DNA of 64,000 nucleotides. Origin: Mesobacterium pallidum. Lineage in GTDB: Bacteria; Pseudomonadota; Alphaproteobacteria; Rhodobacterales; Rhodobacteraceae. The notes beneath the pieces were generated by a model, which had not been told where the DNA came from, ran no database searches, and saw only the letters and a list, made by a program, of their open reading frames with translations. Location: the NCBI RefSeq assembly GCF_019966535.1, contig NZ_JAIMID010000001.1, positions 434,001-498,000 of the forward strand. The letters are read 5' to 3'. This document shows, one piece after another, positions 8,673 to 45,058 of this stretch. How positions within the stretch are numbered: position 1 is the first letter of the stretch; each line of letters begins with the position of its first letter. The translations under genes were made by a program, and so were the position numbers.

Positions 8673-8786
8673 CTGGGCAGGGGTTCCTTGGATTCGGACG
8701 GGCGTGCCCCGAACCTAGGGGGTTGGCGGGGGCAGGACAATGGCCGGGGCTTGCCGCGGGCCGTGGCGCGGCCTACCGTCGGGCGC

Positions 8787-9446
8787 ATGTGTGGACGTTT
8801 CGCCGTGACCCTGCCGCCTGACGCCATGGCGCGCCTCTTCGAGGCGGTGCCGGGGAACGACCTGCCGGATGTGCCGAATTACAACGTCTGCCCGACCACG
8901 CAGGTGCACGTGGTTTTTGGCGATGAAGGGCGGCGGCTGGGCGGGATGCGCTGGGGATTCATTCCGCATTGGTACAAGGCGCCGAACGATGGCCCGCTGC
9001 TGATCAATGCCCGGGCCGAGACGATTGCCGACAAGCCCGCCTTTCGCGCCGCCTGTCGCAGCCGGCGCTGCCTGATCCCGTCGGACGGGTTCTATGAATG
9101 GACCCGCACCAAGGAGGAGAAGCTGCCCTGGTTCATCCGGCGCGCCGACGGCGAGCCGCTGGTCATGGCCGGGATCTGGCAGGACTGGGAGCGGGACGGT
9201 GAGACCCTGCGAACCTGCGCCATCGTCACGACCGAGGCGACCGGGCCGATGGCCGAGATCCACCACCGCGTGCCGGTGATCCTCGATCCCGCGGCCTGGG
9301 CGCTGTGGCTGGGCGAGGAGGGCAAGGGCGCGGCCACGCTGATGCAGCCGCCGGGGGACGAGGTGCTGGCCTTTCACCGGGTGGACAAGGCGGTCAATTC
9401 CAACCGCGCCAGCGGGCCGGAGCTGATCGAGCCGATCGAGGTCTGA
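8787..9446 (+). CDS. SRAP-domain DNA-protein crosslink protein (YedK/HMCES family)
   Basis: 219 residues, normal for the family. SRAP proteins shield abasic sites in single-stranded DNA by forming a thiazolidine link through Cys2, which is present as MCGRF. The other active-site features are also visible: INARAET, the glutamate in PSDGFYEW and the histidine in EIHHRVPVIL. The frame is open for nearly 2 kb upstream over the antisense of dnaX, but Cys2 directly after Met fixes the true start, because the initiator must be removed to expose it. It is divergent from dnaX, 114 bp away. Confidence 0.94.
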   Translation: MCGRFAVTLPPDAMARLFEAVPGNDLPDVPNYNVCPTTQVHVVFGDEGRRLGGMRWGFIPHWYKAPNDGPLLINARAETIADKPAFRAACRSRRCLIPSDGFYEWTRTKEEKLPWFIRRADGEPLVMAGIWQDWERDGETLRTCAIVTTEATGPMAEIHHRVPVILDPAAWALWLGEEGKGAATLMQPPGDEVLAFHRVDKAVNSNRASGPELIEPIEV

Positions 9447-9488
9447 AGGCAGGGCGCCTCACGCCCTTGCGGCCTGCTTCGCCGGCGC

Positions 9489-30004: not shown

Positions 30005-31075
30005 TCAGCGCGGGGCCAGCAGGCTGGCCGCCACCATGTCGGCGGCCGAGGGGCTGAGCGCCATGGGCGTGTCGTGCAGCATGGCAAGCCGGGTGAGCGC
30101 CTGGGTGTCCGCATCGCCGCCATGGGGCAGCAGAGGGTCGGCAAAGAAGATCACGGCGTCAAGCTCTCCGGTCGCGATCAACGCGCCCAGCTGCTGGTCG
30201 CCGCCCCGCGCGCCGCGTTGCAACCGGCGGATGGTGAGGTCCGGATGATCGGCGGCGATCATGCGCCCCGTGCCGCCGGTGCAGAAGAGCTGATGCCCGT
30301 GCAGGGCGCCGGCATGGCGCGAGATCCAGGCGCGCAGCTGCGCCTTGCGGCTGTCATGCGCCGCCAGCGCCACGCGGCGCGGCGCGGTCGAGAGGCGCCG
30401 GGCCTGGGTGGTGATCGCGAGGATCGACCGGACCTGTTCGGCGAACCCCGGCCCTGCCGCCGGGAAGGCCCCGGCCAGTGCCGCCGTGCCCACGGTGAAG
30501 CCCGCCGCGCCGGAACGGGCCGTCGCCTCGACCCGCGCCGCGCTGTCGATGCTGCCGGCCATGATGACCGGCTTGTCCACGGCCGTGCAGACCTGGGTCA
30601 TGAGGGATTCGACGTCGCCGTCGAAGCGATAGGCCAGCAGGTCAAGCCCGTGGACATGTTCCAGTTCTGTCAGGCGTTTGGCCGAGGCGACAATGTCCGA
30701 GGCCGGCCCTTCCAGCACCGAGGGATGCCCGGTGATCCGGCCGGGGAAGGGGTAGTAGCGCAGCGGGTGCCAGCGGGTGAGTTGCGTCACCTCCTCGGCC
30801 CGCGTCCCGCCCAGCAGCACGTCGACCTCGAGCGTGATGGCGGCGCGGGCGGAGGCAAGCTCGCTTTCCGCGTCGAGGCTGACCACCTCGAGATAGGAGC
30901 GCCCGCCCGCCGCGCGGATCTCGTCCGCGAGGCCCTTGAGGTCGGCAAGCGGCAGGCCGACATCCTTGAAGCCGATGTGGCGCACGCCGCCTTCCAGCGC
31001 CTCGGCCAGCCGGGCGCGGGCGTCGGGGATGGTGCGGTCATCCGCCGTGAGCATCAGGATGAAATCGAAGGCCAT
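30005..31075 (-). CDS. fusion of a TIM-barrel-like domain with methylglyoxal synthase
   Basis: 356 residues. The C-terminal part (233-356) is a full methylglyoxal synthase domain: AHDSRK (His, Asp and Lys of the phosphate pocket), CTGGTGRM, GARGGDQQLGAL with the catalytic Asp (Asp71 of the E. coli enzyme), FFADPL and the later PH...D. It should convert dihydroxyacetone phosphate to methylglyoxal and phosphate. The N-terminal part (1 to about 225) looks like a phosphate-binding beta/alpha barrel: HIGFKDVGLP, YRFDGDVESL, and VIMAGSIDSAARVEA...GFTVGTAAL near its end resembles a HisA/TrpC-type phosphate loop. I cannot name that domain. The ribosome site is weak. It lies 61 bp after an SDR gene on the same strand and may belong to that operon. 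Confidence 0.85.
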   Translation of the reverse strand: MAFDFILMLTADDRTIPDARARLAEALEGGVRHIGFKDVGLPLADLKGLADEIRAAGGRSYLEVVSLDAESELASARAAITLEVDVLLGGTRAEEVTQLTRWHPLRYYPFPGRITGHPSVLEGPASDIVASAKRLTELEHVHGLDLLAYRFDGDVESLMTQVCTAVDKPVIMAGSIDSAARVEATARSGAAGFTVGTAALAGAFPAAGPGFAEQVRSILAITTQARRLSTAPRRVALAAHDSRKAQLRAWISRHAGALHGHQLFCTGGTGRMIAADHPDLTIRRLQRGARGGDQQLGALIATGELDAVIFFADPLLPHGGDADTQALTRLAMLHDTPMALSPSAADMVAASLLAPR

Positions 31076-31136
31076 GGCGCGTTCCCGTCTGGTTGCGCCT
31101 AGTGTGGCGCGCCGGGGCGGGGGCTGCAAGCCAAGG

Positions 31137-31961
31137 CTAGCCGCGCGGTTTGCGGCCTGAATGGGTCCAGTCGGGTGTGACGGCTTCGCGCGGGGCGGTC
31201 AGCGCCTCTTCGGACAGGTATTTCGTCGAGGTCCAGCCGCCGTCCACCGCCAGCACCTGCCCGTTGATCCAGCCCGAGGCGGGGGACGACAGGAACCAGA
31301 TCGCCTCGGCCACGTCGCCGGGCGTGCCCCAGCGCGCGGCGGGGGTCATGTCGTGGTTCATGCGGCGGAAGGCTTCGACCTCGAGCCGGTGTTCGGTCAT
31401 CGGGGTCGGGATGACGCCGGGCGCCACGGCGTTCGACCGGATGCCCGCGGCGCCGTATTGCGCGGCCATGTGCAGGGTCAGCCCGTTGAGGCCGGCCTTG
31501 GCGGCGGAATAGGCGCCGCCGCGCAGCCCGCCGAGGATCGCGTAGGTCGAGGAGATGTTGACGATGGTCGCCTCGTCTTTGAACGCGGTCAGGGCGGCGC
31601 GGGCGAGGCGGAAGGGGGCGCGCAGCATGATGTCGAGGAACAGGTCGAGCGTGGCGTCGTCGGTGTCATGCACCGGCGCGGGGCTGCCGATTCCGGCGTT
31701 GTTGACGAGGTGGTCGAGGCGGCCGAAGCGGGCCATGGCATGGGCGACCGCGTCGTCCGGCGCCGTGTCTGCGGTGATGTCGGCGGCGAAGGGTTCGAAC
31801 GGGGCGGGCAGGCCCGCGAGGCTTTCGGCGGCGGCGTGCAGCTTGGCCGGGTCGCGAGCGACGCCGACCACGGCCACGCCGCGTTCCAGGAAGAGGCGGG
31901 CGGTGGCAAGGCCAATGCCGCTCGAGGCGCCGGTGATGAGGGCAACGCGTTGGTCGGTCAT
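31137..31961 (-). CDS. SDR-family oxidoreductase
   Basis: 274 residues. Short-chain dehydrogenase: TGASSGIG (10-17), NNAGI, the Ser/Tyr/Lys catalytic set (NISSTYAILGG, YSAAKAG), and a C-terminal PASGWINGQVLAVDGGW. It overlaps the preceding acyl-CoA dehydrogenase gene by 4 bp, so it should act on the same pathway, plausibly as a 3-hydroxyacyl-CoA or alcohol dehydrogenase. Substrate unknown. Confidence 0.9.
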   Translation of the reverse strand: MTDQRVALITGASSGIGLATARLFLERGVAVVGVARDPAKLHAAAESLAGLPAPFEPFAADITADTAPDDAVAHAMARFGRLDHLVNNAGIGSPAPVHDTDDATLDLFLDIMLRAPFRLARAALTAFKDEATIVNISSTYAILGGLRGGAYSAAKAGLNGLTLHMAAQYGAAGIRSNAVAPGVIPTPMTEHRLEVEAFRRMNHDMTPAARWGTPGDVAEAIWFLSSPASGWINGQVLAVDGGWTSTKYLSEEALTAPREAVTPDWTHSGRKPRG

Positions 31962-32935
31962 GACGGGGCCTTTCCGGTCGGGGCCATGGGGGCGTCAAAG
32001 CTCAGCATATCATGTGGCCCGAGCAGCGCCCGCAAGAGATGTGCCTGTTTGAGATAGAGCTGCGCGTCGGCCTCGGCCGAGAAGCCGATGCCGCCATGGA
32101 CCTGGATACCAAGCCGCGCGTTTTCCAGCGCGATACGCGGCGCGAGGCGCGCCAGCGCGGCCACTTGGAACCCGGCATCGGGCGCGCGGGCATCAAGCGT
32201 CAGCGCCGCCATGTCGAGCTGGGCCGAGAGCATTTCCGCCCCGAGCGCCATGTTGGCGCCGTGGTGCTTGATGGCCTGGAAGGCGCCGATGGGCCGGCCG
32301 AATTGCTCGCGTGTCCTGGCGTAGTCCACGGCAAGGTCGCGCGCGGCCTCGGCCACGCCCAGCAGTTGGGCGGAGACGAGGAGGTCATGCAGCAGGGCGA
32401 CCTCAGGCAGCGCTTCGGGTCCGGCGGGCAGGGCGCTGGTGACGCGCGCCAGCGCGCGGCCGTGGCCCATCATCGGCGCGTCCTCGGTGGCGAGGCCGGC
32501 GAGCGGGACGAGGCTGAGCGTTGCGCCGTCGCGAAGCACCGCATGGGCCGCGCCGCCCGCGTCGATCAGCAGGGGACCGTCCGGCGTGGTCACGCCCGCG
32601 CAGACCGCGACCTCTCCGCCCGCGATGGCGAGCGCGAGGTCCACGTCCTCGGCGCCAAGCGCGATGCGGGCGGCGATGCTGACTGCAACGGCCGAGGGAG
32701 AGACCAAGTGGCGGCCGAGCAGGCTGTGCAGCTGCGCTTCTTCGACCCGGCCGAGGCCGGCGCCGCCCGCATCCTCGGGAAAGCCCAGCAGGAAGGTGCC
32801 GAATTCAGCCAGCGGGGCCATGGGGTCGGCGGCGCCCTCGCGCAGCCGCGAGACGGGGTAATGCGTGTCCAGCATCTGCTGGGCGGCGTCCAGCACCTGC
32901 CGCAGCTCTTCGGTCAACGTCAGATCAAGCGTCAT
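31958..32935 (-). CDS. acyl-CoA dehydrogenase, small (FAD-poor) subunit type
   Basis: 325 residues. The C-terminal half has the conserved helices (VDYARTREQFGRPIGAFQAIKHHGANM, IQVHGGIGFSAEADAQLYLKQAH), while the N-terminal and middle domains are shortened. It lacks the usual YEGT or GGTxEIQ block at the end. This pattern fits the partner subunit of alpha2-beta2 heteromeric dehydrogenases described for steroid-degrading FadE pairs. It overlaps the larger subunit gene by 4 bp. Confidence 0.87.
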   Translation of the reverse strand: MTLDLTLTEELRQVLDAAQQMLDTHYPVSRLREGAADPMAPLAEFGTFLLGFPEDAGGAGLGRVEEAQLHSLLGRHLVSPSAVAVSIAARIALGAEDVDLALAIAGGEVAVCAGVTTPDGPLLIDAGGAAHAVLRDGATLSLVPLAGLATEDAPMMGHGRALARVTSALPAGPEALPEVALLHDLLVSAQLLGVAEAARDLAVDYARTREQFGRPIGAFQAIKHHGANMALGAEMLSAQLDMAALTLDARAPDAGFQVAALARLAPRIALENARLGIQVHGGIGFSAEADAQLYLKQAHLLRALLGPHDMLSFDAPMAPTGKAPS

Positions 32936-34062
32936 GGCCGCGCCTCCCGCGGCAGGCCCAGGATCCGCTCGCCGATGATGTTGCGCTGGATCTCGGCCGT
33001 ACCGCCGGCGATCGTCTCGGAATAGCTTTCAAGGTAGTCGGCCACGCGCCCCGAATGGACCAGCGCCGCAGGCCCGAGGATGTCCATGGCGGCGCGGCGG
33101 ATGCGTTGTTCGAGCTCGGCAAAGGACAGCCGCACGAGCGAGCCGTCAAAGGGCGTCGCGGGCTCGCGCAGGGCCACGCGGTAGGTCATCGCGCGGATCG
33201 CCGCCGCCTCGGCCCGCAGGTCCGACAGCCGCTCGGCCATGGCGGACCCCGGCGTGGGGCGGGCGAGGTCGATCAGGTCCTCGACCTGCACCGACAGGTC
33301 CAGCTGCAGCGCCATGGCGGCGGTGCGCCGCTCGAAGCCCAACGTGGTCATGGCGGTCGTCCAGCCGTCATGCAGCCCGCCGACGACCTGTGTCAGGGGG
33401 ATGCGCACGTCATCATAGAACACTTCCGCGAAATGCGTCGCCCCGGCCATGTTGCGGATCGGGCGGATGGTGATGCCGGGCAGGGACATGTCGCAGATGA
33501 CCCAGCTGAGGCCCTTGTGGCGTTTCGATCCCGGCTCGGTGCGGATCAGCAGCTCCTGGAAATCGGCGATGTCGGCATAGCTCGACCAGATCTTCTGGCC
33601 GTTGACGATCAGCATGTCGCCCTCGACACGGCCGGTGGTGCGCAAGCTGGCAAGGTCCGATCCGGCGCCGGGCTCGGAAAAACCCTGGCACCAGATCGAC
33701 TGCCCTTTCAGGATGCGGGGCAGGTGCGTGGCCTTCTGCGCCTCGGTCCCGCAGGCGATCAGCGTCGGGCCGGCGTGGTTGAGGGCGACAAAGCTGCAAT
33801 CCAGCGTCGAGGGCGCGCGGGCGCGCACGTATTCCTCGTACCAGAGCAGAAGGCGCGCCGGGGGCAGCCCCTGGCCGCCGTAGTCCTTCGGCCAGGCAAG
33901 GCCGCCCCAGCCGCCGTCGTAGAGCTTTGCCAGCCAGTCCAGCGCAAAGGCGCGGGACTCGGACCCGTCTTCGGGCGCACGGGTGGCGGGCTTGTTGTCC
34001 AGCAGCCAGGCGCGGGCCGCGTCGCGAAAGGCGATATCCTCGGGCGAGAGCTGGAGTCTCAT
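32932..34062 (-). CDS. acyl-CoA dehydrogenase, large subunit type
   Basis: 376 residues. Full ACAD fold: N-terminal helices, WCQGFSEPGAGSDLASL FAD/substrate block, VNGQKIWSSYA, and a C-terminal GGTAEIQRNIIGERILGLPR. The catalytic glutamate of the YEGT motif is absent (IAGGT), as in FadE types that use a glutamate elsewhere in the chain. The ATG at 34062 is chosen over a TTG 13 codons upstream. First gene of the leftward operon; operator-like site at 34084-34099. Confidence 0.9.
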   Translation of the reverse strand: MRLQLSPEDIAFRDAARAWLLDNKPATRAPEDGSESRAFALDWLAKLYDGGWGGLAWPKDYGGQGLPPARLLLWYEEYVRARAPSTLDCSFVALNHAGPTLIACGTEAQKATHLPRILKGQSIWCQGFSEPGAGSDLASLRTTGRVEGDMLIVNGQKIWSSYADIADFQELLIRTEPGSKRHKGLSWVICDMSLPGITIRPIRNMAGATHFAEVFYDDVRIPLTQVVGGLHDGWTTAMTTLGFERRTAAMALQLDLSVQVEDLIDLARPTPGSAMAERLSDLRAEAAAIRAMTYRVALREPATPFDGSLVRLSFAELEQRIRRAAMDILGPAALVHSGRVADYLESYSETIAGGTAEIQRNIIGERILGLPREARP

Positions 34063-34083
34063 GCGGGGTCGGTACCCAAAAAA

Positions 34084-34099
34084 GTCCACATTGTGGAAC
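34084..34099 (-). promoter_or_regulatory. operator-like palindrome before the leftward dehydrogenase operon
   Basis: GTCCACATTGTGGAAC, with a perfect TCCACA-T-TGTGGA core, 22 bp upstream of the start at 34062. It is a 16-bp variant of the 17-bp GTCCC-N7-GGGAC site found at 34251, 38725, 38756, 44841, 45017 and 45042. Confidence 0.5.
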
Positions 34100-34250
34100 A
34101 ATAGTCCGATCTCATGTCTCGCCCTCCCCTGGGCCGGATCGGCCCGCTTGTGCGGACTTTATAAGCAGATAGCGCCATGGGTCAAGAATGGCGGAGTTGA
34201 CAGCCCCTCCCGCGGCGGTCATGTTCGGCCCATGCTTGAGGGAGGCATGA

Positions 34251-34267
34251 GTCCCATCATGTGGGAG
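34251..34267 (+). promoter_or_regulatory. operator-like palindrome before the rightward dehydrogenase operon
   Basis: GTCCCATCATGTGGGAG, arms GTCCC and GGGAG around 7 bp, ending 9 bp before the ATG at 34277. A protein bound here would block initiation. Same 17-bp form as the sites near the IclR gene and dctP. Confidence 0.6.
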
Positions 34268-34276
34268 AAGGCGTAG

Positions 34277-35428
34277 ATGGATTTCGACTGGACCGAAGAG
34301 GATGCGGCCTACCGGGCGCGCATCCGCGACTTCCTTGCGCGCACGCTTCCCGCCAATTGGGACGAGATCGCGCGCCACGGTCCTGGCTCGCCCGAGCAGA
34401 CGGAGTTCAGCCTTACGTTCTGCCCCAAACTGGCCGACGAAGGCCTGCTGGTCCCGCATTGGCCCGCAGACTGGGGCGGCGCGGATCGACCGCCGTGGGA
34501 GCATTTCATCCTTGGCGAAGAGATGTGGCGCGCCGGCGAGCCGCGCGGCGCGCAATACATGAACGTCAACTGGATCGGCCCGGTGCTGATGCGCTACGGG
34601 TCCGACGCGCAAAAGGCGCAGTATATCCCGCCCATGGCCGAGGGGCGCGCGATCTGGTGCCAGGGGTTTTCCGAACCGAACGCCGGGTCAGACCTTGCCA
34701 GCCTGCGCACCCGCGCGATCCGCGACGGGGCTGATTACGTCATCAACGGGCAGAAGATCTGGACCTCCTATGCCGGGCTCGCCTCGACCTGTTTCCTGCT
34801 GGCGCAGACCGGCGGGGCCGACGGCGGGCGCGCCGGGATCGCCATCTTCCTGGTGCCGATGGACACGCCCGGGATCGAGGTGCGCGCGATCCCCAGCCTG
34901 ATCGGCCATGGCGACATCCACGAGGTCTTTTTCACCGACGTGCGCGTGCCCGCCACGGCGCGGCTGGGGGCGGAGGGCGAGGGCTGGACGATCATTTCCT
35001 ACGCCCTGGCCAATGAACGGGTCGGCATCCCGCGCTACGAGATGGGGGCGGCGACGCTTGACACCATGGTGGCCGAATTGCAGGCGCGGGGGCAGTTTTC
35101 GGACAGCATCGTCCGGTCCCGCGCGGCCCAAGCGGCTGCGGCCTGCGAGGCGGCGCGGCTGCAGGTCTACCGCGTGGTCGACGGCCGGTCGCGCGGCCAG
35201 GCGCCGGGGACGGAATCGAACCTCGCCCGCGTCGCGGTGGTCGGGGCCGAACGCGCGGTGGCCGATTTCGGGATGGATTTCTTGCCCGATGCCTTCTCGG
35301 GCTCGGGCCATGATGCCCTGCTGTCGCATCACGAGCGGGCCATCGTCACCGGCATCGCGGCCGGCGCGACCGAGATCCAGTTGAACCTGGTCGCACGGCA
35401 GCACCTGAACCTGCCGAAAGGGGCCTGA
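34277..35428 (+). CDS. acyl-CoA dehydrogenase, large subunit type
   Basis: 383 residues. ACAD family: IWCQGFSEPNAGSDLASLRT, VINGQKIWTSYA, NERVGIPRYEMGAATL and a C-terminal AAGATEIQLNLVARQHLNLP. As in the leftward partner, the YEGT glutamate is missing (IAAGAT). The overall pattern is that of FadE proteins acting on bulky or branched acyl-CoAs. First gene of a five-gene rightward run; the next gene starts 1 bp after its stop. Confidence 0.9.
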   Translation: MDFDWTEEDAAYRARIRDFLARTLPANWDEIARHGPGSPEQTEFSLTFCPKLADEGLLVPHWPADWGGADRPPWEHFILGEEMWRAGEPRGAQYMNVNWIGPVLMRYGSDAQKAQYIPPMAEGRAIWCQGFSEPNAGSDLASLRTRAIRDGADYVINGQKIWTSYAGLASTCFLLAQTGGADGGRAGIAIFLVPMDTPGIEVRAIPSLIGHGDIHEVFFTDVRVPATARLGAEGEGWTIISYALANERVGIPRYEMGAATLDTMVAELQARGQFSDSIVRSRAAQAAAACEAARLQVYRVVDGRSRGQAPGTESNLARVAVVGAERAVADFGMDFLPDAFSGSGHDALLSHHERAIVTGIAAGATEIQLNLVARQHLNLPKGA

Positions 35429-35429
35429 G

Positions 35430-36344
35430 ATGCGGTTCGACCTGAACGTGGACCAGCAGACTTTTGCCACCGTGCTGGGCCAGATGCTGCAAGGCGCGGC
35501 TTTCGCGCCGGTCGAGGGGTGGGGCCGCTACGACCTCGGCACCGCGCTCGAGGCGCAGTTCGACGCAGGCGGCTTCTTCGATGCCGCCGCCGAGCCCGAT
35601 CTGGGCCCCGTGGCGGCGGCGCTGATGGTGCATGACGTGGCCGGCGTACCCGTCTGTTTCGAGCTCGCGGCCTCGGCGCTCATCCGGCCTTTCCTTGGCC
35701 GCGACGTGCCGCGCCCGCTGGCCGTTCGCGTGGACGGCCAGCCCGGCGCGCTGCGCTACCTGCCGCAGGCCCGGGGCATCGTCGAGATTGGCGAGACCGT
35801 GCGCTATGCCGACCTGCCCGACGGCGCTGCGCAACCCGTCGACAGCCTTTATGCCTACCCGATGGGGGAATTGACCGACCCCGAGGCGCTGGACTGGCAG
35901 ACCCTCGACGCCGACCCCGCGAAACTGCGTGCCCTCTGGCAGGTGGCCACGGCGGCCGAGCTGACCGGCGTGCTGCGCGCGGGCCTCGACGCGGTGCTGG
36001 CCCATGTCCGCGACCGGCGGCAATTCGGCCAACCGCTCGGCGCCTTTCAGGGCGTCCAGCACCGCCTGGCCAATGCGGCGGTCGAGATCGAAGGCGCCCG
36101 GCTCATGATGCTCCGCGCCGCGCAGCGGCAGGCGCCCGGGGATGCCGCCCTCGCGCTGGGCCGCGCGCAGGAGATCACCAACGCGATCACCTATGACCTG
36201 CACCAATTCATGGGCGCCATGGGCCTGACGCTGGAACATCCGTTGCACCGCTGGACCTATCGCGCCAAGCTGCTCAAGGCCGAGATGGGCGGCATGGGCG
36301 CGGCCTACCTCTCCTACGCCACCGACCGCTGGGGGGCGCCATGA
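35430..36344 (+). CDS. acyl-CoA dehydrogenase, small subunit type
   Basis: 304 residues. Only the C-terminal ACAD helices are well kept (DAVLAHVRDRRQFGQPLGAFQGVQHRLANAAVE, HQFMGAMGLTLEHPLHRWTYRAKLL). The N-terminal half is diverged and no terminal catalytic block is present. It probably forms a heteromer with the preceding gene product. The stop overlaps the crotonase gene by 4 bp. Confidence 0.85.
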   Translation: MRFDLNVDQQTFATVLGQMLQGAAFAPVEGWGRYDLGTALEAQFDAGGFFDAAAEPDLGPVAAALMVHDVAGVPVCFELAASALIRPFLGRDVPRPLAVRVDGQPGALRYLPQARGIVEIGETVRYADLPDGAAQPVDSLYAYPMGELTDPEALDWQTLDADPAKLRALWQVATAAELTGVLRAGLDAVLAHVRDRRQFGQPLGAFQGVQHRLANAAVEIEGARLMMLRAAQRQAPGDAALALGRAQEITNAITYDLHQFMGAMGLTLEHPLHRWTYRAKLLKAEMGGMGAAYLSYATDRWGAP

Positions 36345-37126
36345 GCGATCTGCCGACATACGAGACGCTGCTGCTGACCCGCGCCGGGCGGCGGCTGACG
36401 ATCACCTTCAACCAGCCCGAGGTGCTGAACGCTTTCGGCGCGGCCATGCACCGCGAGATCACCGAGGCGCTGGTGTTCGCCGCCGCCGATCCCGGGTCCG
36501 ACGTGATCGTGCTGACCGGGGCGGGGCGGGCGTTTTCGGCGGGCGGCGACATCGCCCGGATGCAGCATTTCGTCGACCACCCGGACGATTTCGCCGCCGA
36601 GGCCGAGGGCGCCAAGCGGCTGATCTATGCCCTCTTGGAGATCGACAAGCCCCTGGTCGCCCGCATCAACGGCCCCGCCGTGGGGCTGGGGGCCACCATC
36701 GCGCTCTTCTGCGACGTGACCTTTGCCAGCGAAACGGCGAAGATCGGCGATCCCCACGTGGCTATCGGCCTTGTCGCCGGGGACGGCGGGGCGGTGATCT
36801 GGCCGCAGCTGGTGGGGATGCACCGCGCCAAGGAATTCCTGCTGACCGGCGAGCTGCTGACCGCCGCCCGCGCCGCCGAAATCGGCCTCATCAACCATGT
36901 CCTGCCTGATGACGCGCTGGACACCGCCGTCGATGCCTTCTGCGCCAAGCTGCTGGCGGGGTCGCAGCCGGCGATCCGCTGGACCAAGGTGACCATGAAC
37001 CTCGAACTCAAGCGGCTGGCCCATGCGTTGATGGACCCCGGCATGGCCTACGAATCCCTCTCGGTTCGCACCGAAGAGCATCGCGCCCGCGTCCAAGCCT
37101 TCGCCGCAAAGGCGCGCAAGCCATGA
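36341..37126 (+). CDS. enoyl-CoA hydratase/isomerase family protein
   Basis: 261 residues. Crotonase fold with oxyanion-hole segments GAGRAFSAGGDIARM and INGPAVGLGATIAL. At the position where hydratases usually have a catalytic Glu (PE) this protein reads GDPHVAIGLVAGDGGAV, so it may be a specialised hydratase, isomerase or hydrolase. It overlaps its neighbours on both sides by 4 bp, so it is firmly in the operon. Confidence 0.9.
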   Translation: MSDLPTYETLLLTRAGRRLTITFNQPEVLNAFGAAMHREITEALVFAAADPGSDVIVLTGAGRAFSAGGDIARMQHFVDHPDDFAAEAEGAKRLIYALLEIDKPLVARINGPAVGLGATIALFCDVTFASETAKIGDPHVAIGLVAGDGGAVIWPQLVGMHRAKEFLLTGELLTAARAAEIGLINHVLPDDALDTAVDAFCAKLLAGSQPAIRWTKVTMNLELKRLAHALMDPGMAYESLSVRTEEHRARVQAFAAKARKP

Positions 37127-38715
37127 CCGACCCGCTTGGCCCCCGCCTTGCTGACCTCGCGGCCGGCGGTCGTCACCGCGCGCCCGAGCGCCCCGGCCTT
37201 GGCGACCTGGCCCTGGCGCTCGCGGCCGAGGACCCGGACCGCGTCGTGGTCAGCCAGGGCGGCCGGGATGTCACCCGCGGGCAGATGCTGGACATGGCCC
37301 TGCGCCTTGGCGGCGCGCTGATCGCGCGGGGGCTCCAGCCCGGCGCCAGCGTCGCCTTCCAGCTGCCGAACTGGTGGGAGGCGACGGTCATCAACCTCGC
37401 CTGTGCGCTCTTCGGCTGGCGCATCGTGCCGCTCCTGCCGATCTACCGCGCGGCCGAGCTGCGCGCGATCCTGCCCGCCTGCGCGGTGCAGGCGATCTTT
37501 CTGCCGCCCGCCACCCCGGGCCGCGACTACCGCGCCACGGTCGAGGGGCTCGACAGCCCGCCGCCGCATATCTTCACCCTGAGGGGCGATGCGCCGGGCG
37601 GGTTCGACGATCTCTTGCGCCATGCGCCGGCCGAGCCTGCGCTGCCGCCCTGCACCGATGCCAAGTTGATCATCTTCACCTCGGGCAGCACCGGGCGGCC
37701 CAAGGGGGTGCTGCACACCCATGCCTCGCTCGACGCCGTGGTGCGGCAGACCGCCGATACCTGGGACACGGGCGAAGGCGACGTGCTCTACGTCCCGTCG
37801 CCCGTCGGCCATATCGGCGGGTCGATCTACGCCTTCGAGTTTCCCTGGATCACCGGCTGCCGCACGATCCTGGACGACCAGTGGGACCCGGCCCGCGCGG
37901 TGCGGGCCATAGACGACCACGGCGCCACCTTCATGGCGGGCGCGACGCCCTTCCTGGCGGGGCTGCTCGCGGCGGCCGAGGCGGCGGGCAGCGCCCTGCC
38001 GGGGCTCAGACGCTTTGTCTGCGGCGGGGCCAGCGTGCCGCCCGAGCTGGTGCGCCGGGGCCTCGCGGCCTTTCCCAATGCGGTGGTCAGCCGCGCCTAT
38101 GGCTCCTCCGAGGTGCCGCTGGCCTTTCCGGGCATCCAGACCCGCGCGGGGGCCGAGGCCCATGCCGACACGGACGGCGAGGCGGCGGTCGAGGTGCGCC
38201 TGCTGGACAGCGTCGGCGCCGAAGTGCAGCCGGGGGCGGAGGGCGAGATCGCCCTGCGCGGGCCGCAGATGTTCATCGGCTACCTCGACCCTGCCGACGA
38301 TATCGGAAGCTTTACCGAGGACGGGTTCTTTGTCATGGGCGACCTCGGCCGGTTGACCGAGGGGCGCTATATCACCATCACCGGCCGCACCAAGGACATC
38401 ATCATCCGCAAGGGCGAAAACATTGCCCCGCTCGAGATCGAGAACGCGCTGCTGACCCATCCGGACGTCTTGGCCGTGTCCATCGTCGGCGCGCCGGATG
38501 CCGAGCGGGGCGAAATCGCCGTCGCCTTCGTCGTGGCACGCCCCGGCTTCGACATGGTTGCGATGCGCGACCACCTCGAAGACGCGGGGCTGGCGCGACA
38601 GAAGTTCCCCGAGCGGCTGGAACTGGTCGAGGCGCTGCCGATGAACGCCGTCGGCAAGGTGCAGAAGCCCGAGCTGCGCCGCATCGCGGCCAGGCTGGTC
38701 CGGCAGGACGCCTGA
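37123..38715 (+). CDS. AMP-dependent acyl-CoA synthetase/ligase
   Basis: 530 residues. ANL superfamily: P-loop-like A3 motif IIFTSGSTGRPKGV near residue 180, RAYGSSEVP, GDLGRLTEGRYITITGRTKDII (A7-A8 hinge) and catalytic lysine near the end in PMNAVGKVQKPELR. It activates a carboxylic acid to its CoA thioester and is the likely entry enzyme for the pathway encoded around it. Chain preference cannot be inferred. Confidence 0.92.
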   Translation: MTDPLGPRLADLAAGGRHRAPERPGLGDLALALAAEDPDRVVVSQGGRDVTRGQMLDMALRLGGALIARGLQPGASVAFQLPNWWEATVINLACALFGWRIVPLLPIYRAAELRAILPACAVQAIFLPPATPGRDYRATVEGLDSPPPHIFTLRGDAPGGFDDLLRHAPAEPALPPCTDAKLIIFTSGSTGRPKGVLHTHASLDAVVRQTADTWDTGEGDVLYVPSPVGHIGGSIYAFEFPWITGCRTILDDQWDPARAVRAIDDHGATFMAGATPFLAGLLAAAEAAGSALPGLRRFVCGGASVPPELVRRGLAAFPNAVVSRAYGSSEVPLAFPGIQTRAGAEAHADTDGEAAVEVRLLDSVGAEVQPGAEGEIALRGPQMFIGYLDPADDIGSFTEDGFFVMGDLGRLTEGRYITITGRTKDIIIRKGENIAPLEIENALLTHPDVLAVSIVGAPDAERGEIAVAFVVARPGFDMVAMRDHLEDAGLARQKFPERLELVEALPMNAVGKVQKPELRRIAARLVRQDA

Positions 38716-38724
38716 TCGCCTGGG

Positions 38725-38741
38725 GTCCCGTGATGCGGGAT
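38725..38741 (+). promoter_or_regulatory. operator-like palindrome upstream of the IclR gene, site 1
   Basis: GTCCCGTGATGCGGGAT, arms GTCCC and GGGAT. It lies 31 bp, three helical turns, before the second site at 38756. Confidence 0.6.
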
Positions 38742-38755
38742 GGTGTCGGTCACAT

Positions 38756-38772
38756 GTCCCGCTATACTGGAC
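38756..38772 (+). promoter_or_regulatory. operator-like palindrome overlapping a -10 box, site 2
   Basis: GTCCCGCTATACTGGAC contains TATACT (38763-38768), a good -10 hexamer 26 bp before the IclR start. Binding here would repress the IclR gene, as expected for autoregulation. Confidence 0.6.
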
Positions 38773-38794
38773 GCAACCGAGGCAAGGGGCAGGC

Positions 38795-39568
38795 ATGACC
38801 AAACAGGACGGCACCCAGGCGATCCGGCGCGCGGCCGCGATCCTGCAACAGATCGCGCATGTGTCGGACGGGCAACCGCCAACGCTGCGCAGCCTCAGCC
38901 AGGCGGTGGACCTGCCGCGTTCGACCACGCACCGGATCCTGAAATGCCTGACCGAAGAGGGGCTTGTCGCCTACGACGAAGCCTCGCGCCGCTACGAGAT
39001 CGGGATGCTCAGCTACGAGCTGGGGCTGGCCGTGACCGACCGGGTGCTGCAACTGGCGCCCTGGGCCTCGGCTGCCGACCGGGTGGCGCAGCGGGCCAAT
39101 GTCACGACCTATCTCATGCGGCGCTCGGGGATGGAGGCGGTCTGCGTCCACAAGGCCGAGGGGCGCAATGTGATCCGGGTAATCCCGGTCGAGGTCGGCC
39201 AGCGCCGCTACCTTGGCGTCGGGGCCGGGGCCACGGCGCTGCTGGCCGGGCTGCCGGATTCGGGTGTCGACCAGATCATCACGGCCATCGCGCCCGAACT
39301 GGCGGCCTTTGCCGACCTCAGCCCCGAGCGTATCCGCGAGGCGGTGGCCGAGGCGCGCCGCACCGGGTTCGCGGAAAGCCAGGGGCGCGCCTACCGGTCG
39401 ATCTACGGCCTCGGGATGGGTGTCGCGGCCCATGCGGCCGAACCCGACATCGCCATCTCGATCGCCGCCCATGCGCCCGAGGTGGACGATGCCCGCATCG
39501 CCGAGTGGAAGGCGATCATCCGCGAGGAAATCGCCGCCACGCAAAAGGCGCTGCCGGCGCGCGCCTAG
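38795..39568 (+). CDS. IclR-family transcriptional regulator
   Basis: 257 residues. N-terminal winged helix ([43 protein letters not shown]) and the C-terminal IclR effector domain ([40 protein letters not shown]). This class commonly controls aromatic and carboxylic acid catabolism. It follows the CoA ligase by 79 bp, with two palindromes in that gap. It is my first candidate for the protein binding the GTCCC-N7-GGGAC sites. The 3' end overlaps the convergent dehydrogenase gene by 4 bp. Confidence 0.92.
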
Positions 39569-40698
39569 CCCGCCAGCGCGCGGGCGATCACCAGGCGCTG
39601 GATGTCGCTGGTGCCCTCGTAGATCTGGCAGACGCGGACGTCGCGGTAGATCTTTTCCACCGGAAAATCGCGGGTATAGCCGTAGCCGCCGAAGGTCTGG
39701 ATCGCGCCGGAACAGACCTCCTCGGCGATCTCCGACGCGAAGAGCTTGGCCATCGACGCCTCCTTGAGGGCAGGGCGGCCCGCGTCGCGCAGGGTGGCGG
39801 CATGCAGCACCATCTGGTGCGCCACCTCGACCTTGGTGGCCATGTCCGCAAGGCGGAAGGCGACGGCCTGGTGGCCCATCAGCTTGGCCCCCATGCTCTC
39901 GCGTTCGTTGGCATAGGCCACGGCGTGATCCAGCGCCGCGCGGGCCATGCCGACCGATTGCGCGGCGATGCCGATGCGCCCGCCCTCGAGGTTCGACAGG
40001 GCGATGCGGTAGCCCTGGCCTTCCTCGCCCAGGAGGTTCTCGGCCGGGATCTCGAGGTCCTCGAACGCGATCTGCGCCGTGTCCGACAGCGTTTGCCCCA
40101 GCTTTTTCTCAAGCGAGGCGACGCGGTAGCCGGGCGTATCCGTGGGCACGATGAAGGCGGAAATTCCCTTCTTCCCCGCCTCGGGGTCGGTCACGGCAAA
40201 GACGATGGCGACATCGGCGTTCTGCCCCGAGGTGATGAACTGCTTGACCCCGTTCAGCTTGTACCCCGCGTTGGTGCGCACCGCCCGCGTCTTCAGCGCC
40301 GCGGCGTCCGATCCCGCGTGCGGCTCGGTCAGGCAGAAGGCGCCCAGCTTTTCGCCGCGGGCCATGGGGCGCAGGAACTGCTCTTTCTGCGCGTCGGTGC
40401 CGAACTTCAGGATCGGCACGCAGCCGACGGAATTGTGCACCGACATAATGGTGGACACCGCGCCATCCCCGCCCGCGATCTCTTCCAGCGCGAGGGCATA
40501 GGCCACGTGGTCGGTCATGGCGCCGTCCCAGTCCTCGGGCACCAGCATGCCCATGAGGCCAAGCGCGCCCATCTCGGCCAGCTCGGCCCTGGGGAAGGCG
40601 CCGCTGCGGTCCCATTCGGCGGCCTGGGGCGCCAGCCGCTCGGCCGCGAAGCGGCGGGCCATGTCGCGGACCATTTCCTGGGTGTCGTCGAGGATCAT
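39565..40698 (-). CDS. acyl-CoA dehydrogenase (short/branched-chain type)
   Basis: 377 residues, canonical full-length ACAD. Seen: [83 protein letters not shown] with the catalytic glutamate in YEGT. Unlike the four other dehydrogenases here it has the standard active site, resembling butyryl- or 2-methylacyl-CoA dehydrogenases. Possibly co-transcribed downstream of the TetR gene. Confidence 0.93.
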
Positions 40699-40753
40699 GT
40701 CGGGGCCTTTCGGTGGGGGCGCGGCCCGCCACCCGGCGGGACAAGCGGCGGGG

Positions 40754-41428
40754 TCAGTCGGGGATCTTCCCGGTCACGCGGGCCAGGAACATGTCGGCGA
40801 TATAGTCGGCATCGCGGCCCAGACGGTCGGTCGTGCCGTCCACGATGGCCTGGATGCAGATGCCGGAAATCGTGCCCGAGACGGCGCGCACGGACTGGTC
40901 GATATCGACGCCCTCGCGCAGCTCTCCCATCGACTGCGCCTCTTGCATGTAGCCGCGCAGGTTGTCGCGATAGGCGCGCTGCAGGGCCTGGACGCGCGGC
41001 TTCAGCTCGGGGACCGAGCCGCTTGAATCCACGATCAACTGGTAGAGCGCCACGGCGCTGTCGGGCATGTCGCGCACCGCCTCCATCTGGAAGCGGATGC
41101 GCTCGGCCAGCGCCGCGCAGCCGCGCCTGTCGCCGACCCGCTCGGCTACCTGGCGCAGGAACCGCTCTTCAATCGCGTCCAGCACCGCCTCGAGCAGCGC
41201 CAGCTTGGTGCCGAAGCGCTGCACCGGCAGCCCGCGCGAATAGCCCGCGTCCAGCCCGATCTGCGCCAGGTTGGCCCCGGCCGTGCCCTTGCGCCCGATC
41301 AGCGCGATGGCCGCGCGCAGCATCTTGCGGTCCGACTCGGCCCGGCGCTGGTGCTTGGGGCCGAGGACGGGGCTGGCATCGGGTGTCGCGGTCAAGGGCG
41401 GGTCTCCTGCGGGCGTTGCGGCGATCAT
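40754..41428 (-). CDS. TetR/AcrR-family transcriptional regulator
   Basis: 224 residues. N-terminal helix-turn-helix region [36 protein letters not shown], then a helical ligand domain. The first 30 residues are low in conservation, so the true start may be slightly further in. It sits between the ACAD gene (55 bp downstream) and the TRAP permease genes. TetR proteins of this kind often sense acyl-CoAs, so it is a second candidate regulator of the island. Confidence 0.88.
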
Positions 41429-41459
41429 AGCGGCTGGGCGCGCCGTGGCCAGACGGGGC

Positions 41460-42911
41460 CTAACGCGCCACGCTGCCCTCGGGCAGCCAGGTCACGATGC
41501 CGGGAAAGGAGATCAGGATCAGCACCACCACCAGCGCCGTCAGCGCGAAGGGCAGCACGCCCAGAAAGACGGTGCCCAGGCTGATCTCGCGCCCCAGGTT
41601 CGCCTCGGGGTCCGAGGCGATGCGATGGACGATGAAGGTCAGGATGCCAAGCGGCGGCGTCAGCAGCCCGACCTCGGCCATGACCACGAGGAAGACTCCG
41701 AACCACAGCGGGTCCACGCCGACCGATTCCAGCGGCTTCATCAGCACCGGGATAGTCAACAGCATCATCGCCAGCGTGTCCATGAACATGCCAAGGATCA
41801 GGTAGGCGATGATCAGGATCAGCAGCAGCTCGACCCGGCCCAGCCCCAGCGCGGCCACTTCTGACGCGATGAAGTTCGGTACCTGGCTCAGCGCCATGGC
41901 GCGGGTCAGCACCGCCACGCCGATGATCAGCAGGAAGACCGAGGCGGTGCCGGTCAGCGTGCCGATCAGCGATTCGCGCAGCATGACGCCGATCTCGCGC
42001 AGGGCGTTGCCTTGGCCAAGCTGGTGCGCCACGCCAAAGATCAGCGCCGCGATCATGCCGAAGACCCCGGCCTCGGTCGCGGTGAAGATGCCGGCGAACA
42101 GCCCGCCGATCACGATCAGGATGACCACGGCAATCGGCATGACCCCCGCCAGAGAGCGCCAGCGCATGGCCCAGGTGATCCCGCTCATGTCCACGCGCGG
42201 GGCGAGCGAGGGGCGCAGCATCGCCTGCGCGACGATCATCGCAGCAAAGGCAAAGGCCAGCATCAGGCCGGGAATGACGCCGGCCAGCAGCTGCTGGCCC
42301 ACGGGCAGCGAAGCGGCGCCGGCATAGACGACCAGCAGCAGGCTGGGCGGGATGATCTGCCCCAGCGTCCCGGCGGCCGCGACCGATCCGACGGCCAGCT
42401 GCGGATGGTAGCCCGATTTCAGCATCTCGGGGATCGACACCCGCCCCAGCGCGTAGGTGATGCCGATGGTGCTGCCGCTTGAGGCCGCCAGCGCCGCGCC
42501 GGCGAAATTCGTGGCGACCGCCAGCCCGCCGGGCATCCAGCCCAGCCAGCGGCGCGCGGCCTCGAAGGCGGAGGTGGTCAGCCCCGTCTTCCACATGATC
42601 ATGCCCATGAGGATGAACATCGGGATCACGCTGAGCGACCAGGACGCGGCGGCGTCATAGGCCACCCCCTCCATCGTCGATTTGACCACCCGCAGCCCGC
42701 TGAGCGCGTAGAGCCCCAAGAGCGCCGCGCCGAACATGGCGACCCCGACGGGGATGCCCATGAGCAGCAGCACGATGGACAGGACCACGATCAGGATGCC
42801 GATGACCTGTTTCGGAAGGTCCGCGTAGAGCATCGCGCCGGAGGCGGCGATGGCGATGACGAGGCCAAGGATGAAGACCGCGATGCCAAGGCGCTGGGCG
42901 CGGGGGGTCAT
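41460..42911 (-). CDS. dctM: TRAP transporter large permease
   Basis: 483 residues, about 12 membrane segments. DctM features: LLLMGIPVGVAMFGAALLGLYAL, FILMGMIMWKTGLT, AASSGSTIGITYALGRVSIPEMLKSGY, and GQIIPPSLLLVVYAG. It is longer than many DctM because of extra N-terminal hydrophobic sequence, typical of the subgroup that carries fatty or aromatic acids and mannitol-like substrates. The ATGA overlap with dctQ sets the start, although the frame is open far upstream. Confidence 0.94.
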   Translation of the reverse strand: MTPRAQRLGIAVFILGLVIAIAASGAMLYADLPKQVIGILIVVLSIVLLLMGIPVGVAMFGAALLGLYALSGLRVVKSTMEGVAYDAAASWSLSVIPMFILMGMIMWKTGLTTSAFEAARRWLGWMPGGLAVATNFAGAALAASSGSTIGITYALGRVSIPEMLKSGYHPQLAVGSVAAAGTLGQIIPPSLLLVVYAGAASLPVGQQLLAGVIPGLMLAFAFAAMIVAQAMLRPSLAPRVDMSGITWAMRWRSLAGVMPIAVVILIVIGGLFAGIFTATEAGVFGMIAALIFGVAHQLGQGNALREIGVMLRESLIGTLTGTASVFLLIIGVAVLTRAMALSQVPNFIASEVAALGLGRVELLLILIIAYLILGMFMDTLAMMLLTIPVLMKPLESVGVDPLWFGVFLVVMAEVGLLTPPLGILTFIVHRIASDPEANLGREISLGTVFLGVLPFALTALVVVLILISFPGIVTWLPEGSVAR

Positions 42912-43474
42912 GCGGCCTCCCCTTCGCCTTGAGTGTCGGCCGCGCCGCCGGGCAACCGGCCGGTGAAATGGCGGAAACTGGTCGCGGCGGTCTGCAGGGC
43001 CAACGCGGCGACGCCGATCACGGCGACGAACTTGACCGGCCAGATGGCGACCGGGGGCAGGGAGGAGGTCGTCTCGCGGTAGCCGAAACTGTCCATCGCC
43101 TCGTGCCAGGCGTGCCAGGCGAGGCCCACCAGCAGGGCGGTGGCGATCAGGCCGAAACACCCCTCGACCCAGGCCCGCATCCGCGCGGGCAGGGTGTCAA
43201 GAAGGATGGTCACCTTGATGTGGTCCTGGCGCCGTTCGGTATAGGCAAAGGCCAGCAGGGTAAGCGCGGGCATCCACCATTGCGCGGTCATCTCGAGCGT
43301 GCCGCGCAGGGGCGTCTTGAAAAAGGCGCGCCCGATCACGTCGACAAAGACGTTGAGCGCCAAGAGGCACAGCGCGAGGCCGGCGACCAGCGCAAGGCCA
43401 AGGGCCAGCCGGTCGATCCAGGCCAGCAGGGCCGGATCGGGGCGCGCGGGGGGCGTCCGGGGGGTGTCCGTCAT
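42908..43474 (-). CDS. dctQ: TRAP transporter small permease
   Basis: 188 residues with four membrane segments (LALGLALVAGLALCLLALNVFVDVIGR first). The FKTPLRGTLEMTAQWW and AYTERRQDHIKVTI blocks are typical of DctQ. It forms the membrane complex with DctM and overlaps it by 4 bp. Confidence 0.92.
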   Translation of the reverse strand: MTDTPRTPPARPDPALLAWIDRLALGLALVAGLALCLLALNVFVDVIGRAFFKTPLRGTLEMTAQWWMPALTLLAFAYTERRQDHIKVTILLDTLPARMRAWVEGCFGLIATALLVGLAWHAWHEAMDSFGYRETTSSLPPVAIWPVKFVAVIGVAALALQTAATSFRHFTGRLPGGAADTQGEGEAA

Positions 43475-43512
43475 GGGGTGACCTGTATCACGATCCGCCA
43501 GATGGCGGTACG

Positions 43513-43538
43513 GGGCCCGCCGCGTTGGACGGGCCCCC
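43513..43538 (-). promoter_or_regulatory. intercistronic hairpin between dctP and dctQ
   Basis: GGGGCCCG and CGGGCCCC form a perfect 8-bp stem with a 10-base loop, 15 bp after the dctP stop. No T run. Likely stabilises the abundant binding-protein message or partly terminates. Confidence 0.6.
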
Positions 43539-43553
43539 TTGACTGCGCGTTGG

Positions 43554-44768
43554 TTACTTCATCAGGCCGGGGGCGACCTCGGCCTTGAAGCTGTCGGCGA
43601 AGGACGTGAGATCCACGTCCGACAGGCCCGCGAAAGCCTGCATGATCGCCTCGGGCGTGCGTTCGGCGACGGCATAGCCCTCGGCCTCAAGCTTGTCGGT
43701 CCAGTAGGCGATACGGGCTTGGTAATCGGCCACGAACCCGGCAGCATCGGTCACCGCGGCGGGGGCGGTGCCCGGCAGCGCCTTGACGAATTCCGCCCGC
43801 TGCGCGGCGGCGACGGGTTCCAACGCCGCGATGTCGTTGGTGTGGATCACCTCGCCACCCGCGATCAGGTCGCCGGCCTTGGCCTCGATCTCCATGTAGC
43901 CCTGCCAGATGTCGGCGGCGGCCTTCAGGTTCGCCTCGGTGATGAAGTTCTGCAATTCGACCGGGAAGCCGTCCCAGATGTCCTTGTTCATCACCCAGGT
44001 CGAGGCCTGCAGCTGCGCCATGGTCACCGGCACGTATTCCGGCGCCACGTCCTTGAGCGTCAGCCCGTCCGCGTATTGGTTCGGGTTGATGACCATGCAG
44101 TCGAAGACGCCGCGCTGCAGCCCCTCGTAGGCCTCTCCCCAGGAGATGCTTACCGGCGTCATGCCAAGCGCCTCGGCCGTGGTCGACCAGACGGCGCCGA
44201 TGGCGCGGGCGCGGATGCCCTTGGCATCGTCGAGCGAGGCGATGGGCTTGTTGCACAAGAGGTTATAGGCGGGTGTGGCGGTGGCCTGCAGCACGACGAC
44301 ATTGTGCGATGCGTATTCCTGCGTCACCGGCTCGTAGGTCAGCAGGGTTTCCAGCGCGGTGGCGCCGCCGGCGGCCACGTCATGCACGGTCGAGCCCGAA
44401 AGCGCGGCGCCCATGCCGAACATCCAGGAGGCGACGGGCAGTTTCTGCGGCATGTAGGACGGGATGATCAGGCCGATGTCGGCCACCCCGTCGCCCACCC
44501 CTTCGAGCGTGTCGAGCGCGCCCAGCAGGGACGAGGACCAGTAGTTTTCAAAGGTGATCTTGCCCTGCGTGAACTCGGTGATCGATTCTTCCCAGGCCAC
44601 CATGGCCTTGCCGAAATTGGCGTTCTGGTCGCCCGAGAAATCGGCGAGCTTCAGCGTCATCGGCTCGAGGGTGTCGAGCCAGGCGTCCTGGGCCAGCGCG
44701 GCGCTGCCAAGGCTCGCCGTCACGAGGGTCGCGGCCGAGATGCGCGCCCATGTTGCGTATGCGGTCAT
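43554..44768 (-). CDS. dctP: TRAP transporter substrate-binding protein
   Basis: 404 residues. Signal peptide (ARISAATLVTASLGSAALA), mature start QDAWLDTLEPMTLKLADFSG. The DctP signature region is seen as LLCNKPIASLDDAKGIRARAIGAVW, with the conserved arginine that usually binds the substrate carboxylate. Two adjacent ATG codons (44771 and 44768) follow GGGAGGAA; the second has better spacing. It is first in dctPQM. Three operator-like palindromes lie upstream at 44841, 45017 and 45042. Confidence 0.93.
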   Translation of the reverse strand: MTAYATWARISAATLVTASLGSAALAQDAWLDTLEPMTLKLADFSGDQNANFGKAMVAWEESITEFTQGKITFENYWSSSLLGALDTLEGVGDGVADIGLIIPSYMPQKLPVASWMFGMGAALSGSTVHDVAAGGATALETLLTYEPVTQEYASHNVVVLQATATPAYNLLCNKPIASLDDAKGIRARAIGAVWSTTAEALGMTPVSISWGEAYEGLQRGVFDCMVINPNQYADGLTLKDVAPEYVPVTMAQLQASTWVMNKDIWDGFPVELQNFITEANLKAAADIWQGYMEIEAKAGDLIAGGEVIHTNDIAALEPVAAAQRAEFVKALPGTAPAAVTDAAGFVADYQARIAYWTDKLEAEGYAVAERTPEAIMQAFAGLSDVDLTSFADSFKAEVAPGLMK

Positions 44769-44840
44769 CATTTCCTCCCTTTGCCATTGCGGCAATCCGT
44801 TCGGGCGTCCCTTCGCCCGTCCTGGGGTGGACGCTAGCAT

Positions 44841-44857
44841 CTCCTACTTTGTGGGAC
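44841..44857 (-). promoter_or_regulatory. operator-like palindrome before dctP, proximal
   Basis: Read on the minus strand: GTCCCACAAAGTAGGAG, 73 bp upstream of the dctP start. Arms GTCC and GGAG with the same 17-bp spacing as the sites near the dehydrogenase and IclR genes. Confidence 0.45.
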
Positions 44858-45016
44858 AATCCTTTCTGCGACATTCCGTGCGCCTTGGGGCGTGGTTCCT
44901 CGTGAACCTGGGTGAAAACCTGTCGTTATGCGCGATTTTCACGAGAAAAGGTGGAAAAGGCAATGTGCGCCGTGGCTGTTGACCCGTCTCATCTCGAGCC
45001 CCTGTTTTTCTTGGTT

Positions 45017-45033
45017 GTCCCGTATAATGGGAC
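45017..45033. promoter_or_regulatory. operator-like palindrome before dctP, distal
   Basis: GTCCCGTATAATGGGAC, perfect 5-bp arms around 7 bp, enclosing TATAAT. About 250 bp upstream of dctP and just beyond the 3' end of the ThDP enzyme gene. Confidence 0.6.
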
Positions 45034-45041
45034 GTTTGGGT

Positions 45042-45058
45042 GTCCCGGAATGTGGATC
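45042..45058. promoter_or_regulatory. degenerate operator-like site
   Basis: GTCCCGGAATGTGGATC, 25 bp from the preceding site and touching the stop codon of the ThDP enzyme gene. The left arm is intact, the right arm reads GGATC. Confidence 0.35.

Follow-up and report, generated by a model that had tools for sequence, protein, structure and literature searches.

Genes and palindromic sites at the locus

A 64,000-nucleotide stretch of the 5.98-Mb genome of Mesobacterium pallidum (contig NZ_JAIMID010000001.1, positions 434,001 to 498,000; hereafter the window) contains a cluster of acyl-CoA dehydrogenase, acyl-CoA ligase and tripartite ATP-independent periplasmic (TRAP) transporter genes, with 17-bp palindromes related to GTCCC-N7-GGGAC in three of its gaps. 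Comparison with related genomes makes it quite likely that these palindromes are the operators of the IclR-family protein encoded in the cluster (iclR, 38795-39568, plus strand), the predicted repressor of a local regulon for one carboxylic acid.

The cluster begins on the minus strand with genes for a short-chain dehydrogenase/reductase (SDR; 31137-31961), an acyl-CoA dehydrogenase partner (acdB1, 31958-32935) and an acyl-CoA dehydrogenase (acdA1, 32932-34062), all assigned by family and domain searches. Divergent from these, on the plus strand, are acdA2 (acyl-CoA dehydrogenase, 34277-35428), acdB2 (acyl-CoA dehydrogenase partner, 35430-36344), an enoyl-CoA hydratase gene (36341-37126) and an acyl-CoA ligase gene (37123-38715), identified by NCBIfam search, followed by iclR. 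Past iclR the cluster continues on the minus strand with acd3 (acyl-CoA dehydrogenase, from domain searches; 39565-40698), tetR (TetR-family regulator; 40754-41428), dctM (large TRAP subunit; 41460-42911; PF06808, 262.4 bits; its start is a presumed one, the longest open reading frame running from 43160), dctQ (small TRAP subunit, named from its place and conservation; 42908-43474), dctP (TRAP solute-binding protein, from domain searches; 43554-44771) and a gene for a thiamine pyrophosphate-dependent enzyme. The domain assignments of the cluster proteins are clear. The iclR product is an IclR-family member, with both the helix-turn-helix domain (PF09339, 44.7 bits; cut-off 22) and the C-terminal effector domain (PF01614, 43.2 bits; cut-off 24), and its orthologues support the assignment. 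No cluster enzyme reaches a substrate-naming NCBIfam cut-off among the matches listed, at most 25 for each protein.

All seven palindromes recorded in a preliminary description of this DNA are present where it placed them, and are numbered here O1 to O7, with scores from the matrix described below. Between acdA1 and acdA2, the predicted acdA1 operator O1 (34083-34099, minus strand; 16.4 bits) had been taken for a 16-bp variant at 34084, but it spans 17 bases and is in register with the other sites (AGTCCACATTGTGGAAC). The predicted acdA2 operator O2 (34251-34267, plus strand; 18.5 bits) was said to abut the start codon; 9 bp separate its end from the acdA2 start, which makes it close rather than abutting. 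O3 (38725-38741, plus strand; 15.3 bits) is a predicted operator upstream of iclR, and O4 (38756-38772, plus strand; 11.6 bits) a second site before the same gene; their reported spacing of 31 bp holds, and the TATACT sequence (38763-38768) does lie inside O4. Upstream of dctP are the proximal operator O5 (44841-44857, minus strand; 18.8 bits), inside a predicted promoter, the distal operator O6 (45017-45033, plus strand; 21.1 bits), which is a perfect palindrome, and a weak distal site, O7 (45042-45058, plus strand; 11.5 bits), 25 bp from O6.

Conservation of the sites in related genomes

We compared eleven genomes: that of the window, nine with an IclR protein 66-82% identical to the window's, and G228, which has two IclR copies. 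The named relatives of the window's IclR protein are alphaproteobacterial. The preliminary description had proposed orthologous gaps as a check, and the sites are conserved there. A site starts 24-27 bp before the acdA2 start codon in all 11 genomes having the IclR orthologue, and the acdA1-acdA2 divergent gap contains two sites in 10/10 cases, one facing each gene. In L012 acdA1 was not found in the stretches read, and two sites precede acdA2 even so. The right arm of the acdA2 site (window 34263-34267) is GGGAG, not the symmetric GGGAC, in nine of the eleven. Upstream of dctP, the proximal site is of a nearly invariant GTCCCACAAAGTAGGAG-type in seven of eight gaps, between the predicted -35 and -10; in the eighth (L034) it is reduced to its right part, the left half having decayed. 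Distal sites are present in all eight dctP gaps, and a close dctP was not found in the stretches read of L007, L009 and L012.

The gap before iclR has a site of at least 14.8 bits in five of the eleven genomes. Counterparts of O4 at +31 are partial matches in L005 (5.6 bits) and L006 (5.0 bits), with none in L010 or L012. In L008, L011, L013 and G228 iclR lies closely behind the ligase gene, and may share a transcript with it. In L010, two further genes separate the acyl-CoA ligase gene from iclR (7013-9915), one for another hydratase and one for a CoA-ligase-like protein that carries Succ_CoA_lig and ATP-grasp domains.

Matrix and pattern searches

A symmetric matrix was derived from a seed consensus chosen after reading the gaps and was trained on seven relatives' loci, with the window excluded. 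It was applied to the window and to fetched pieces of other genomes; genome-wide searches used patterns. The window contains five matches of at least 15 bits, all within three gaps amounting to 578 of its 64,000 bases. Fifteen pieces (330,732 bases) yield 51 matches at this threshold, whereas 200 column-permuted matrices average 1.2 and never exceed 34, so that none attains the observed count. Among training pieces, 27 of 28 matches fall within the named gaps, the exception being L005 6384, inside the ligase gene; in the eight non-training pieces, two of which (L034 and L039) share genomes with training pieces, the figure is 20 of 23, and the three strays are two in L007 plus L031 5318. The concentration of matrix hits that the preliminary description had proposed as a check is thus seen in the window and the pieces. 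A further eight pieces (L029, L032, L033, L035-L038 and L040) were scanned at 11 bits and excluded from the 51-match count; L036 overlaps L005, L038 has a match at 3996 that is not in a named gap, and no match of at least 15 bits occurs in the others.

In L007, from a Pararhizobium assembly, sites of 17.6 and 19.1 bits (976-1109) precede an FMN (flavin mononucleotide)-oxidoreductase-like gene and an enoyl-CoA hydratase gene, and are plausibly a further target of the same regulator.

The middle seven bases of the relatives' sites are mostly R-Y-W-W-W-R-Y. A pattern picked after viewing the sites, TCCCRNNWNNYGGGA, whose count is therefore partly circular, occurs at 9 places in the M. pallidum genome (reversed control, 7), four of them in the 11-kb cluster, including an intragenic one at 34347; open frames of 331 to 1004 codons run across the remaining five. 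In nine relatives it occurs at 2 to 21 places each, so that it is far from cluster-exclusive there.

Fit to IclR-family operators

The main type of IclR operator (group 1), GKTYCRYW3-4RYGRAMC, is described in PMC8222616 from 181 regulator groups. The palindromes fit this consensus overall. All seven window sites match it at 13-16 of 17 positions, and the two best of the 66 window 17-mers that reach 13/17 are O1 (16) and O6 (15). Among the relatives' sites, 38 of 42 match at 13 positions or more. In the seven-base centre, every window site agrees with the family at six positions or at all seven.

The same paper ties operator position 10/22 to helix residues 27, 30 and 32, with His32 weakly preferring C(10); it has Arg28 favouring G/C at 8/24 and associates Arg33 with sites of odd length. 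Alignment to TtgV (LPRSTVQR versus LPRSTTHR) places Arg42, His46 and Arg47 of the window IclR protein at helix positions 28, 32 and 33, and Arg28, His32 and Arg33 are invariant in 12/12 sequences. The match of His32 with C(10) is supporting evidence only, and of a weak kind, as the preference itself is weak in PMC8222616. Tandem sites 18-22 bp apart are described there as a frequent, albeit not universal, group-1 trait, and the distal dctP pairs of L005, L006, L039 and L034 (20, 20, 20 and 22 bp) fit this spacing; the pair in the window is 25 bp apart, and those of L008, L011 and L028 are 29-67 bp apart. We found no published description of this regulon among the titles and abstracts of a partial literature, and the regulator may be among the 181 groups of PMC8222616.

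Predicted promoters and proposed mechanism

Promoters were predicted from conserved boxes. For acdA2 we propose TTGACA-N17-CATGTT (34197-34225, plus strand), with TTGACA aligned in 10/10 gaps, and the acdA2 operator begins 26 bp past the end of the predicted -10. The predicted acdA1 promoter, TTGACC-N16-TATAAA (34158-34185, minus strand; GTCAA aligned in 10/10 gaps), likewise has its operator downstream. The predicted dctP promoter is TTGTCC-N17-TAGCGT with a TG before the -10 (44831-44859, minus strand). Across genomes, the distal dctP sites are 75-209 bp upstream of the proximal site, and the acdA1 and acdA2 operators are 132-168 bp apart; for this latter pair helical phasing gives an approximate Rayleigh p between 0.04 and 0.09, depending on which of four periods is assumed, and looping between the two is possible. 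Repression is favoured as the direction of control because the proximal operators are inside or downstream of predicted promoters, and it is this placement that suggests it.

In the favoured reading, the IclR protein would bind the 17-bp sites as a dimer or tetramer and silence the genes, and would be released by the acid or its CoA ester. At dctP, the proximal operator fills the spacer between TTGTCC and TAGCGT and would exclude RNA polymerase, and the distal paired sites upstream would allow cooperative tetramer binding. The acdA1 and acdA2 operators, downstream of their predicted promoters, would act as roadblocks, and at iclR the site covering the TATACT box would give autorepression, in some genomes only. 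The regulon would then serve to take up the acid (TRAP dctPQM), to activate it with CoA (acyl-CoA ligase) and to oxidize it (the two acdA-acdB pairs, the hydratase and the SDR). The right arm of O2, GGGAG, may also be the acdA2 ribosome-binding site.

A more specific version of this scheme is a tentative suggestion, and on balance a doubtful one. It would have an undescribed IclR protein with an operator type GTC-11-GAC, its C read by the helix histidine, governing a Rhodobacterales and Rhizobiales regulon for an acid degraded via paired acyl-CoA dehydrogenases; a tetramer would draw the acdA1 and acdA2 operators, and likewise the distal dctP operators and the proximal one, into repression loops, and the acdA2 operator would double as a ribosome-binding site.

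Alternative explanations

TetR proteins likewise bind palindromes, and tetR belongs to the cluster, where in this window it forms part of the dctP operon, so that the TetR-family protein (40754-41428) might bind the sites and control the cluster while the IclR protein controls something else. Genome comparison makes this very improbable. A close IclR protein is present in all ten other genomes and TetR in seven; a search at 1e-30 gave no TetR match from G299 (a metagenome assembly) or from the strains G302 and G303, though the sites are kept there. G560 is the reverse case, carrying acdA2, acdB2, a TetR protein 68% identical and a TRAP operon of a second type, with a best IclR-family protein only 36% identical and no site reaching 9 bits in 19.5 kb. 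In L005, L006, L007 and L010 tetR adjoins another TRAP operon, with no 8-bit match upstream of that operon, and the sites themselves fit the IclR consensus. Sites of a TetR regulon should track tetR across genomes; the motif follows IclR, not TetR, as TetR-less genomes keep the sites and G560 has TetR without sites or a close IclR. In a family sample, acdA2 was found in 2/290 genomes and IclR in 2/295, the same two genomes, and in a class sample of 385 genomes acdA2 was found in the window's genome and G560, and IclR in the window's genome only. We therefore judge the TetR protein an unlikely binder. The proposal that the IclR protein is the one regulator, made in the preliminary description, is supported by this co-occurrence, by the published operator consensus and by the weak helix-base preference.

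Granting that IclR is the binder, it could act as an activator, or as activator and repressor both, in keeping with the distal sites far upstream of the proximal dctP site and with the dual roles described for IclR-family regulators in PMC11323563; the proximal operators, however, occupy places that favour repression, and we regard activation as unlikely. The palindromes might instead be RNA hairpins hiding ribosome-binding sites, as the acdA2 site, in the leader and overlapping GGGAG, could suggest. Yet the dctP site is upstream of the predicted -10 and the iclR site over it, so that transcripts from these promoters would include neither, and the arms give four or five pairs, the outer of which is broken by the G at position 17 in 9/11 acdA2 sites; hairpins are thus extremely improbable. 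That GC-rich palindromes were simply picked by eye would agree with the lack of enrichment of the bare pattern (see below), but the sites are conserved at set positions in 11 genomes and no permuted matrix reaches the observed count, which leaves chance a negligible prospect.

Several observations weigh against assigning the sites to an IclR operator set. The bare pattern GTCCC-N7-GGGAC is not enriched: with up to two mismatches it occurs 51 times in the window, where 100 shuffles average 67.5, and with up to one mismatch at 184 places in the whole genome against 330 for a reversed control. It was rejected as a site criterion for this reason. As a marker, which is how the preliminary description had used it, the pattern points to sites that are present and conserved, but in its bare form it is at chance level and its N7 centre is not free; we judge the sites real because they are conserved across the relatives' gaps, not because the bare pattern is enriched. 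The description also placed the sites only in front of the named genes. This stands for the strong sites, since 5/5 window matches of at least 15 bits are in the three gaps, but not for O4 (11.6 bits) and O7 (11.5 bits), both outscored by matches at 34347 (14.1 bits) and 59515 (12.2 bits). Strong matches in other genomes also occur outside the named gaps (L005 6384; L031 5318, 16.2 bits; L038 3996, 15.3 bits). Before iclR, nothing scores above 4.4 bits in six of the 11 genomes. T/A at operator positions 10/22 is common to all four published subgroups in PMC8222616, and here C/G replaces it, the one symmetric position at which the motif differs, with half-sites having C in 66/84 and T in 13/84. 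The G560 contrast is that of one genome with another operon layout. The additional IclR copy of G228 (L029) shares 74% identity with the window protein; it is encoded away from the acyl-CoA cluster, and its 20-kb stretch has no site of 11 bits.

The 34347 match is in register and lies inside acdA2. Only 3/11 genomes have it at 11 bits or more, and it overlaps codons of a conserved LPxxW stretch; for these reasons it was set aside as an operator and is probably a coding by-product.

Neighbouring genes

By sequence search, the best match of dctP among solved DctP proteins has an E value of 1.7e-21, and its fold model is poor (mean predicted local distance difference test score, pLDDT, 50.9). Beside the SDR gene, a 374-aa frame on the minus strand (30005-31129) matches methylglyoxal synthase PRK05234 over residues 250-371 (126.7 bits; cut-off 84), the preceding ~240 residues being without a match above the Pfam cut-off. 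This frame is either an unusual fusion or has its start called too far upstream.

Significance and comparison with known systems

As a prediction the local IclR regulon has good support, and comparative genomics has often described others of its kind. It couples a predicted regulator to its operators and delimits the genes of an alphaproteobacterial catabolic pathway. By telling which importer, ligase and dehydrogenases go together, the regulon boundary would narrow the search for the acid. The regulon is also a candidate example of how IclR proteins read bases, with a histidine at helix position 32 and C at operator position 10.

The best NCBIfam match of the window IclR protein is BhcR (NF045644) at 69.3 bits, far below the cut-off of 350. 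BhcR is from Paracoccus denitrificans, which is in the same order as the window organism. BhcR is an IclR-family local regulator of a catabolic cluster, as the window protein is predicted to be, although BhcR serves a glyoxylate pathway (PMC11323563). PheR of Sphingobium is similarly an IclR-family repressor whose gene is beside the catabolic cluster under its control and which is linked to uptake and catabolism, but it differs in its 44-bp footprint, its core GCAACG and its aromatic hydrocarbon pathway (PMC13273656). The paired large and small acyl-CoA dehydrogenase genes recall the PimC/PimD pimeloyl-CoA dehydrogenase. As the scores are below the cut-offs for both PimC (TIGR03204, 623.85; acdA1 206.1 bits, acdA2 187 bits) and PimD (TIGR03203, 652.7; acdB1 53.7 bits, acdB2 35 bits), we do not name the substrate from this likeness.

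The closest parallel is with the IclR group-1 operators of subgroup GTT-11-AAC (PMC8222616). The sites described here share with these a length of 17 bp, which is odd, and an RYWWWRY centre, together with the presence of several sites per regulon, their position near start codons and, in the four relatives L005, L006, L034 and L039, tandem sites 20-22 bp apart. They differ in having C/G for T/A at positions 10/22 and, in the window, pairs that are 25 and 31 bp apart.

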